This document shows, in pieces, positions 3,414 through 23,120 of a stretch of 34,736 nt of DNA. Position 1 is the stretch's first letter. Each line of letters starts with the position of its first letter. The position numbers and the translations under genes are program-made. Below the pieces are notes generated by a model that saw nothing but the letters and a program-made list of their open reading frames with translations, was not told the origin of the DNA and did not search any database. Origin of the DNA: Rhodobiaceae bacterium (GTDB lineage: Bacteria > Pseudomonadota > Alphaproteobacteria > Rhizobiales > JANQQB01); contig JANQQB010000447.1 in assembly GCA_028285165.1 (NCBI GenBank), positions 1 to 34,736 of the forward strand, in the 5' to 3' direction.

Positions 3414-3881
3414 ATGACCAACACCAATGCACTCCGGCCCGCATGGACTCCGTTGACCATCGGTCTGATGGTGCTGGGATTTGTCGTGTTCTGGCCGCTG
3501 GGATTGGCGATGCTCGCCTATATCCTGTGGGGTGACCAGTTTCAGGACATGTTCCGGGACGCCCGGACCCATTTCGACAAGATGATGCGGGACAACTGCA
3601 CCGGCAACCGGCACCGCCGCTCGGCGCGCCCGGTCTATTCGGGCAACGTCGCTTTCGACGATTTCCGCGACCAGGAAATCGAGCGCATCGAGGAAGAGCG
3701 CCGTCGACTCGACGACGAGCGGCGCAAGATCGATGCCATGGAAGAAGAGTTCGATGCCTTCCTGCGCAATTTGCGTCGTGCGAAAGACCAGGAGGAATTC
3801 GACAAGTTCATGGCCGCGCGCAATGCCACCCGCCCGCCGTCCGGCAATCCGGATGCCGATGCGGGTAACAATGCCGGCTAA
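3414..3881 (+). CDS. DUF2852 family membrane protein
   Basis: A protein of about 155 residues of the alphaproteobacterial DUF2852 family, function unknown. After a short N-terminus (WTPLTIGLMVLG...) there is a strongly hydrophobic segment (GFVVFWPLGLAMLAYILWG) that should be one or two membrane passes. A charged tail follows, rich in Glu, Arg and Asp (around EEERRRLDDERRKIDAMEEEF), which is very likely a coiled coil on the cytoplasmic side. Three in-frame starts exist: 3390, 3411 and 3414. GAGAGG at 3404-3409 is best spaced for 3414, which is chosen here. A rho-independent terminator follows at 3996. The family call is good; no biochemical role can be given. Confidence 0.85.
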   Translation: MTNTNALRPAWTPLTIGLMVLGFVVFWPLGLAMLAYILWGDQFQDMFRDARTHFDKMMRDNCTGNRHRRSARPVYSGNVAFDDFRDQEIERIEEERRRLDDERRKIDAMEEEFDAFLRNLRRAKDQEEFDKFMAARNATRPPSGNPDADAGNNAG

Positions 3882-3995: not shown

Positions 3996-4023
3996 GCGCC
4001 CTCGTAAGGGGCGCATTTTTTTT
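3996..4023 (+). terminator. Rho-independent terminator
   Basis: GCGCCC at 3996-4001 pairs with GGGCGC at 4009-4014 around a 7-nt loop, followed by an unbroken run of eight T (4016-4023). It ends the DUF2852 transcript and separates it from the metalloprotease gene. Confidence 0.85.
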
Positions 4024-19949: not shown

Positions 19950-21614
19950 GTGAACCAGAAAGCCCCCAACGGATCCGCGCCGTCTGCCGGAGACCCGCTG
20001 CTCTCGGTGAAGGACCTGTCGGTCGACTTCACCGTCTCCGGCAACACCACGCATGCGGTGCGCAAGGTGTCGTTCGACATCGGCCGCGGCGAGACGGTGG
20101 CGCTCGTCGGCGAATCCGGATCGGGCAAGTCAGTAACCGCCCTGTCCGTTCTCAAGCTGTTGCCCTATCCGTCCGCCAGCCACCCGTCCGGGGAGATCCG
20201 GTTCAAGGGCCGTGAACTGCTCGCCGCCCCGGAATCGGAGCTGCGCAAGGTGCGCGGCAACGACATCACGATGATTTTCCAGGAGCCGATGAGCTCCCTC
20301 AATCCGCTGCACGTGATCGAAAAGCAGATCGGTGAGATCCTGTCCATTCACCAGGGCATGGGCGAAAAGCAGGCGCGGGAACGCACGTTGCAATTGCTCG
20401 ATCAGGTCGGCATCCGCGACCCGGAAACCCGCCTGCGCTCCTATCCGCACCAATTGTCGGGCGGCCAGCGCCAGCGGATCATGATCGCGATGTCGCTCGC
20501 CAATGCGCCGGACCTCCTGATCGCCGATGAGCCGACCACGGCGCTCGACGTGACCGTGCAGGCGCAGATCCTGCGGCTCCTGAAGACCCTGCAGCGCGAC
20601 CAGGGCATGGCGATCCTGTTCATCACCCACGATCTCGGCATCGTGCGGCGGTTCGCCGACCGGGTCTGCGTGATGACCGATGGCGAGATCGTCGAACAGG
20701 GCCCGGTGGAAGACGTGTTCGAGCGTCCGCAACACGCCTACACGAAGCACCTTCTGGCGGCCGAGCCCAAGGGCGACCCGCCGGCCGCCGACCCGTCGGC
20801 GCCGATCGTCGTCGAAGCCGACGACCTGAAGGTCTGGTTTCCGATCCGGCGCGGCGTTTTGCGCCGGACCGTCGGTCACATCAAGGCGGTGAACGGTGTC
20901 GACATTCGCATCCGCCAGGGCCAGACGCTTGGCGTCGTCGGGGAATCAGGGTCGGGCAAGACCACGCTCGGTCTCGCCCTGTTGCGGCTCATCTCGTCGG
21001 AAGGACGGATCGTCCTGATCGGCAACCGCATTGACGGCAAGACCCGCAAGGAGGTCCTGCCGCTGCGGCGTGACATGCAGATTGTCTTCCAGGATCCGTT
21101 CGGGTCGCTCAGTCCGCGCCTGTCCGTGGCCGAGATCGTGGCGGAGGGATTGCGCATTCACAGGCCGCAGCTGTCCTATGAAGAGCGGGATCAGGTCGTT
21201 GCCAAGGCGCTAGAGGAAGTCGGCCTTGATCCCACCACCCGCAATCGCTACCCGCACGAATTCTCCGGCGGCCAGCGCCAGCGCATTTCGATTGCCCGTG
21301 CCATGGTGCTGGAGCCGAAATTCGTCATGCTCGACGAGCCGACATCGGCGCTCGATATGAGCGTCCAGGCCCAGGTCGTCGATCTCCTGCGCGACCTGCA
21401 GCGCAGCCACGGTCTCACCTACCTGTTCATTTCCCACGATCTGAAGGTGGTTCGCGCGCTCGCCAACGACGTGATCGTAATGCGCGACGGCGAAGTGGTG
21501 GAATCCGGTCCGGCGACATCGATCTTTGAATCGCCGCGCACCCGCTACACCCAGGCGCTGATGGCCGCGGCCTTCCGCATCGAGGCGATCGGCGAGGGCA
21601 TTGTGCGGGAATAG
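19950..21614 (+). CDS. yejF: Microcin C / oligopeptide ABC transporter, double ATPase subunit
   Basis: Cytoplasmic ATPase of 554 residues with two complete nucleotide-binding domains in one chain, as in YejF and unlike the separate DppD/DppF pair. Domain 1: Walker A GESGSGKS (about residue 52), signature LSGGQRQRI, Walker [13 protein letters not shown]. Domain 2: Walker A GESGSGKT (about residue 331), signature [15 protein letters not shown], Walker [13 protein letters not shown]. It starts with GTG, 9 bp after yejE, and ends the operon; no terminator is visible before the convergent DUF900 gene 19 bp away. Confidence 0.96.
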
Positions 21615-21633: not shown

Positions 21634-22701
21634 TCAGGACCCGCCGAGCCGGTCTTTCATGTGCTTGTAAGCCACCGGATTGAACAGGTGATAGAGGTGC
21701 CCCGACGGCGTGCTCGGCGCAGAACTCGAGACATCGACGATGTCGATCCCGTCAAACCCGTCCAGATGCGACCCGGACTGGCCGAGCCGCGGATAGCCGT
21801 GCAGTTCGCGCGAGACCAGGAGCGGCGCATCCCGGTCCGACACATAGACGGTGATGCGTTCGGCCAGCGTTTTCAGCCGTTCGACTTTCTGCGCAAAGAT
21901 GCCGGCATCGATGTCTGGAGCGATCAGCATCAATTCCTTGACCACGGGCCCCGATCCCCGCGATTGCTGGCCGATTTGCAGGAGCGCGTCGACGGCCGCC
22001 CGGGAGCCGAGGGAATGGGCGACCAGATTGAAACGGCCCGACCCGAAGGTTTCGCCCATGCGGTCGAGCACGGTGACGAGCGCCGGCACGCTCCAGGCCA
22101 CATTGGCTTCGTCGCGCGCATAGGTGATCACCGCGCCTTCCGACGGCCAGCTGAAGACCGCAAACCGTCCGGCCAGCTCCGTATTGACCTGGAAGCGGGC
22201 GGCGCGGCGGCAGGTCTTAGCGAATCCCATGCGATAGCCGTGCACGTAGAGGCTCGGAACCGTGTCGTCGGCGGATTTGGCGAATGTATCCCAGAAGGCG
22301 GATTCAGTGTGGTGCTTGACGTCGGCAACGGCTTCCAGGGTCCGCGGCACGTGAAAGGTGACGGCTTCGGCGACGTCATCGAGACCGGGAATTGCCGTGT
22401 GATCGACATAACATGTGCCGTATTGGAGCGGTCCGCGTTCGGCCGGGAACCGGTTGGCCAGCGCCGCGTCAGGCTGTTTCTGACGCACGGTCAGGAAGGG
22501 CAGAGCATGGCGTGCTGTCGTGAAAAAGCCGGTTGTGTCGCTGTCGGCCGGGGTGTCATTGGCCAGTCCGGTTGCAGGCACAAGGACAAGGACCGATAGC
22601 GCCAGCACCGCTGCGATCTCGGTCGGGGCATATTGGCCGAGATGCCGGAAAAGGCCGGCCCGATCGGCTGGCGGCTGACGAGGTGGCCGGGGGTGCAGCA
22701 T
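21634..22701 (-). CDS. DUF900-type alpha/beta hydrolase, exported or membrane-anchored
   Basis: A 355-residue hydrolase of the DUF900 group. The N-terminus is about 28 polar residues followed by a hydrophobic segment (IAAVLALSVLVLVPATG), so it is a signal peptide or anchor. The catalytic domain shows the oxyanion-side YVHGYRMGF (152-160), the DUF900 marker FSWPSEG (183-189) and the nucleophile elbow VAHSLGSR (Ser230). A likely acid Asp lies in YVSDRDAPL and a His near the C-terminus (GSHLDGF). AGGAG lies 11 nt before the ATG, slightly far, so a different start is possible. Substrate unknown; the position next to yejF does not show a link. Confidence 0.88.
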   Translation of the reverse strand: MLHPRPPRQPPADRAGLFRHLGQYAPTEIAAVLALSVLVLVPATGLANDTPADSDTTGFFTTARHALPFLTVRQKQPDAALANRFPAERGPLQYGTCYVDHTAIPGLDDVAEAVTFHVPRTLEAVADVKHHTESAFWDTFAKSADDTVPSLYVHGYRMGFAKTCRRAARFQVNTELAGRFAVFSWPSEGAVITYARDEANVAWSVPALVTVLDRMGETFGSGRFNLVAHSLGSRAAVDALLQIGQQSRGSGPVVKELMLIAPDIDAGIFAQKVERLKTLAERITVYVSDRDAPLLVSRELHGYPRLGQSGSHLDGFDGIDIVDVSSSAPSTPSGHLYHLFNPVAYKHMKDRLGGS

Positions 22702-22833
22702 CGAGAGGGCGGCTCCTGAAGGTGATGATGTCAGAACGATTGGCCTCGATGATGATCTTTCGAGTGCGCAACAGGTGGGGCCGGAGCAACACTAAGTCAA
22801 TACGCGAAACGCGGCCGCGCAGGACCCGTAAAA

Positions 22834-22877
22834 GTGGCAAATGGGGCGCTGAGCGCCTCGGAAATGCCACAGTTTTT
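22834..22877. other. Compound stem-loop with T-run, possible terminator or leader element
   Basis: GTGGCA at 22834-22839 pairs with TGCCAC at 22865-22870 and encloses a second GC-rich hairpin (GGCGCT / AGCGCC, 22845-22857). Five T follow at 22873-22877 on the plus strand. On the minus strand the stem is followed by TTTTAC, so it could also act as an attenuator-like structure in the leader of the DUF900 hydrolase mRNA. No plus-strand gene is seen upstream. Confidence 0.4.
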
Positions 22878-22995
22878 CCATTTAGCCGGCGCCCGACCCT
22901 TGCTTTTCAAGCGGGGGACCCCCATCTTGGAAATGTTGTACAAAGAGTAAACGCCGCATCGGGAAGAGGCGCGTTGGACGCGGTTTAAGTAACAT

Positions 22996-23102
22996 AGTAG
23001 CGTGTGCGTACACGGTTTCCACGCCACAATAATGGGAACCGCTAACAATAACTATAATCGCAATCGACACCAAATCGGGCGACTTCGGTCGCCCTTTTCT
23101 CT
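22996..23102 (+). ncRNA. Candidate trans-acting small RNA
   Basis: Reading left to right: a small hairpin CGTGT / ACACG (23001-23014), a 7-bp stem GGTTTCC / GGGAACC (23014-23020 with 23034-23040, one G-U pair), and an unstructured A/C-rich stretch of about 36 nt (CTAACAATAACTATAATCG...). It ends in a perfect terminator. The two left hairpins share base 23014 and are alternatives or adjacent. Stem, A/C-rich single strand and terminator with a U-tail is the usual build of an Hfq-dependent sRNA. The 5' end is not known; TTGGAC (22972-22977) could be a -35, but the -10 is weak. No protein-coding gene on this strand explains the terminator. Confidence 0.5.
23077..23102 (+). terminator. Rho-independent terminator with UUCG loop
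   Basis: GGGCGAC at 23077-23083 pairs perfectly with GTCGCCC at 23088-23094 around the very stable TTCG tetraloop, then TTTTCTCTTT. It is strong on the plus strand. On the minus strand, where it would end the CoA-ligase mRNA, the following bases (GATTTGG) are poor in T. Confidence 0.88.
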
Positions 23103-23120
23103 TTGTATTGCCGGCTTTGT

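Follow-up and report, generated by a model that had tools for sequence, protein, structure and literature searches.

Gene Content of the Locus

The window, i.e., the whole stretch of 34,736 nucleotides that was analyzed, is a single contig of a Rhodobiaceae bacterium assembly (5.9 Mb, 508 contigs). It contains a protein-free gap of 419 bp (22702–23120) with a GC content of 54% vs. 62% window-wide. The gap is flanked by a DUF900 alpha/beta hydrolase gene and by an AMP-binding acyl-CoA ligase gene (Table 1), and both indeed lie on the minus strand, as the sequence-only reading of this DNA had stated. The two genes are not convergent with each other; a plus-strand transcript arising in the gap would have the DUF900 gene behind it and the convergent ligase gene ahead. 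Further to the left, an oligopeptide transporter operon on the plus strand ends at position 21614. Small open reading frames of the gap gave no meaningful family match.

Table 1. Features of the gap and its flanking genes (window coordinates).
Feature	Position	Strand	Details
DUF900 alpha/beta hydrolase gene	21634–22701	−	PF05990, E 1.2e-31; left flank of the gap
Second, stronger hairpin	22834–22871	both	−23.1 kcal/mol on plus, −17.8 kcal/mol on minus
Start zone required if the transcript ending at 23077–23103 begins past the second hairpin	22872–23012	+	inferred
Upstream stem-loop	23013–23041	+	9 bp, 11-nt loop; −11.6 kcal/mol, z −2.4
A/C-rich, G-poor linker, predicted unpaired	23041–23076	+	AACAATAA at 23044; possible Hfq-binding stretch
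Intrinsic terminator	hairpin 23077–23094, T-rich tail 23095–23103	+	7-bp perfect stem, cUUCGg loop; −12.4 kcal/mol alone
AMP-binding acyl-CoA ligase gene	23121 to about 24767 (start approximate)	−	PF00501, E 9e-65; PF13193, E 3.9e-16; right flank of the gap

An Orphan Intrinsic Terminator on the Plus Strand

The perfect 7-bp terminator with a TTCG loop and a T-rich tail described in the sequence-only reading is present exactly as described: GGGCGAC-TTCG-GTCGCCC followed by TTTTCTCTTT, with eight T in 10 positions. Six of the seven stem pairs are G-C and the tract directly 3′ of the stem is TTTTCTCTT. When read on the minus strand, the same hairpin has a CGAA loop followed by GATTTGGTG, with neither a U-tract nor a UUCG loop. 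Both of these features occur on the plus strand only, and the hairpin fits this strand best. The U-tail is broken by a C (UUUUCUCUU), while long unbroken U-runs are typical of Hfq-dependent small RNAs (sRNAs).

The whole window was scanned for strict T-tails preceded by a perfect stem of 6 bp or more. Only two sites were revealed, 23077–23094 and 3996–4014. In first-order Markov shuffles that keep dinucleotide frequencies, a window held on average 0.2 such sites with stems of 6 bp or longer and 0.03 with stems of 7 bp or longer. A strict site of at least 7 bp appeared in 0.23% of the shuffled gaps. A looser terminator scan showed no excess over shuffles (three found vs. 3.3 expected), and thus the significance rests on the strict definition, that is, a perfect stem together with a strict T-tail. 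Under this definition the 23077 hairpin exceeds chance, and judged by its sequence it has all the features of a plus-strand intrinsic terminator. The second site of the window lies on the plus strand, about 115 bp past a plus-strand open reading frame called at 3453–3881, and consists of GCGCCC-TCGTAAG-GGGCGC followed by ATTTTTTTT.

Within the gap, neither a plus-strand gene upstream of the 23077 hairpin nor any coding family was found, which bears out the earlier claim that nothing protein-coding explains the terminator. Ordinary terminators of protein genes have the same hairpin and tail and differ from this one in having a same-strand gene upstream.

Orphan Terminators Elsewhere in the Genome

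Base rates were estimated from 0.71 Mb of the genome (60 pieces, the window included), with genes predicted by a simple codon-based caller. In total, 15 strict terminators with stems of 7 bp or longer were found between genes. Eleven of them come after a same-strand gene, four of these by more than 300 nt, and the remaining four, including the 23077 site, have an opposite-strand gene upstream. The orphan terminator is therefore not unique in this genome. Rfam searches of seven other contigs carrying orphan or far-from-gene terminators revealed no known RNA, so that they offer no positive control for orphan terminators marking RNAs here.

It should be mentioned that one of the orphan sites, at L070:1868–1889 on the plus strand, is formed by TGGCCGGGC-TTTT-GCCCGGCCA followed by T8, has opposite-strand genes on both sides and is preceded just upstream by an TGCGCATTATGCGCA hairpin. 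With a better U-tail than that of the 23077 site and no Rfam match, it is a second sRNA candidate.

Structure of the Region Upstream of the Terminator

The stem-loop that had been reported just upstream as 7 bp long is present: its stem at 23014–23040 (GGTTTCC/GGGAACC) includes one G-U pair and is lengthened by RNAfold to 9 bp (23013–23021 with 23033–23041). Shuffling the region 22960–23076 produces an equally stable hairpin in 33% of cases, and of 117-nt pieces taken at random from the window 90% contain one. The upstream hairpin is thus ordinary and only mildly unusual for its region. Once the terminator is removed, the remaining 117-nt body is no more stably folded than its shuffles, whichever strand is read, and hence the z-score of −3.0 for the whole element is carried largely by the terminator. 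A larger three-way-junction fold of 22960–23076 had a z-score of −0.35 and was dropped as evidence.

The 36-nt A/C-rich single-stranded stretch noted earlier was likewise recovered, between this stem-loop and the terminator. It comprises 16 A, 10 C, 7 T, and 3 G, and is predicted to be unpaired. Similarly A/C-rich and G-poor windows make up 0.08% of intergenic 36-nt windows in the 0.71 Mb of the genome, and about 5% of gap shuffles yielded such a linker. The sole AAYAAYAA motif on the plus strand of the window lies in the linker at 23044; its frequency in shuffles of the gap alone, which is AT-richer than the window, was about 0.035.

A Second Hairpin and the Bracketed Island

No local structure of the gap is more stable than the imperfect hairpin at 22834–22871, which is flanked by a T-run on either side (AGTTTTTCC on plus, TTTTACG on minus). 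In at least 5 of 400 shuffled gaps, a local fold reached the same stability. The hairpin could possibly be a bidirectional terminator, a boundary, or a 5′-leader element of the DUF900 gene. Between it and the 23077 terminator lies a protein-free island of about 205 bp. This arrangement fits an independent transcription unit, but it also fits plain boundary signals between neighboring genes. A promoter scan, which covers alphaproteobacterial and alternative promoters poorly, recognized no sigma70-like promoter for a plus-strand transcript.

Within the island, TTGTACAA at 22935–22942 is a perfect 8-bp palindrome, with GGGGGACCCCC shortly upstream; it could represent a candidate regulator site.

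Comparative Searches

A comparison with the 4227 families of Rfam 15, one of the checks put forward in the sequence-only reading, was carried out. No family matched at or above its gathering threshold, and a relaxed search gave chance-level or terminator-only matches. One of the families compared was the Pseudomonas sRNA PhrS (RF01673): the 18-nt terminator hairpin matches its consensus GGGCGACUUCGGUCGCCC, but nothing outside the terminator does, and the candidate scores 17.2 bits vs. a gathering score of 37.

Among the genomes searched, none was closer than the same order. DNA searches of 61 genomes, of 398 order-level genomes and of 385 class-level genomes revealed no homolog; the matches were mainly to the terminator or short and chance-level. 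In the 398 order-level genomes most matches were confined to the terminator. In the 385 class-level genomes a query without the terminator gave three matches, each about 25 nt long, which is roughly the number predicted by an E-value of 0.01 per genome. The one class-level match read in detail (L064) had no corresponding hairpin and terminator. A single-sequence covariance model run on the 398 genomes produced six weak matches vs. four expected at E 0.01; they were rejected as homologs, as the alignments shown cover mainly the terminator and the best match lies at the 3′ end of a porin-like open reading frame. No match was found in a plasmid collection.

Relatives of the CoA ligase protein are mostly alphaproteobacterial, the best being 60% identical, and the best relatives of the DUF900 protein are about 35% identical. 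Gaps located through relatives of either protein showed no homology beyond the terminator; in the genomes searched the flanking proteins are too diverged for a syntenic comparison. Trans-acting sRNAs are often confined to close relatives. As the genomes searched included no close relative, the failure to find homologs counts only weakly against an sRNA.

Interpretation of the Terminator

A plus-strand terminator with no plus-strand gene to serve, a linker that is A/C-rich and unstructured, and the presence of hfq in the genome (PF17209, E 8.1e-32) together make an sRNA a fair reading of the locus. In our judgement, which is not a computed value, the chances are about even that the terminator ends a short, lineage-specific and possibly Hfq-bound sRNA. 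Such a non-coding plus-strand transcript would begin between the 22834–22871 hairpin and about position 23012, end at the 23077 terminator and measure roughly 90–230 nt. Its stem-loop, the unpaired linker with AACAAUAA and the UUCG-capped terminator would suit a trans-acting base-pairing sRNA, probably working with Hfq. A more specific version is distinctly more tentative: a lineage-specific, Hfq-bound sRNA with its own promoter, located opposite and beside the CoA ligase gene, that would regulate genes of transport or acyl-CoA metabolism in an alphaproteobacterial family otherwise unsampled. In a target prediction against 546 start regions, the linker did not score above shuffled linkers.

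In Caulobacter, the 3′ end of Hfq-bound sRNAs is often made up of a hairpin with a U-run, and a low-GC stretch lies ahead of it (PMC11005374). The candidate resembles alphaproteobacterial Hfq-dependent trans-acting sRNAs such as Caulobacter RusT (PMC11005374) in its intergenic position, orphan intrinsic terminator, low-GC stretch upstream and the presence of Hfq in the genome. It differs from RusT-type sRNAs in being known from its sequence alone, in the lack of a recognized promoter or homolog, in its interrupted U-tail and in the lack of similarity to Rfam sRNAs. The proposal that this region has the build of Hfq-bound regulatory RNAs is partly supported: the plus-strand terminator, the A/C-rich linker and hfq in the genome speak for it, but no promoter was recognized, no Rfam family and no homolog, hence no compensatory base change, was found, the body shows no excess structure and the U-tail is broken. 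In that matches in other genomes are mainly to the terminator, the candidate also resembles ordinary terminators of protein genes.

The terminator may instead act with no sRNA at all, halting stray or read-through plus-strand transcription, e.g., from the transporter operon, before it enters the ligase gene in antisense orientation. We consider this a minority possibility. It agrees with the hairpin lying immediately beyond the 3′ end of the ligase gene and with the strict scan, which found no perfect-stem terminator right after the operon end at 21614. However, the 22834–22871 hairpin would already block such read-through, and the same hairpin, in favor of an sRNA, separates the candidate from other plus-strand transcription; the unusual linker in the upstream stretch also speaks against a mere boundary. 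It is rather unlikely that the hairpin serves only the minus-strand ligase mRNA, as a stabilizing 3′-end hairpin or a weak bidirectional terminator, which had been named as the outcome that would overturn the sRNA proposal. Its placement, 26 bp past the ligase stop codon, is what a 3′-end element would show, and intrinsic terminators between convergent genes are often bidirectional in Z. mobilis and E. coli (PMC7566282), but the other gene of this gap, DUF900, is not convergent with the ligase gene, and the U-tract lies on the wrong side for a minus-strand transcript. As for a chance hairpin or a functionless relic, the chance-level stem-loop and body and the lack of conservation in our searches are in line with it, but a perfect stem with a T-tail arose in only 0.2% of gap shuffles, which makes this explanation very improbable.

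Taken as a whole, the locus carries a genuine orphan terminator, and the sRNA candidate that it marks is plausible but ordinary and lineage-specific. If transcribed, it would be one more lineage-restricted sRNA, from an alphaproteobacterial lineage to which none of the genomes searched is closely related, and the general picture would be unchanged even if the sRNA is real. The practical value of the finding is that orphan intrinsic terminators can flag sRNA candidates in genomes for which expression data are lacking.
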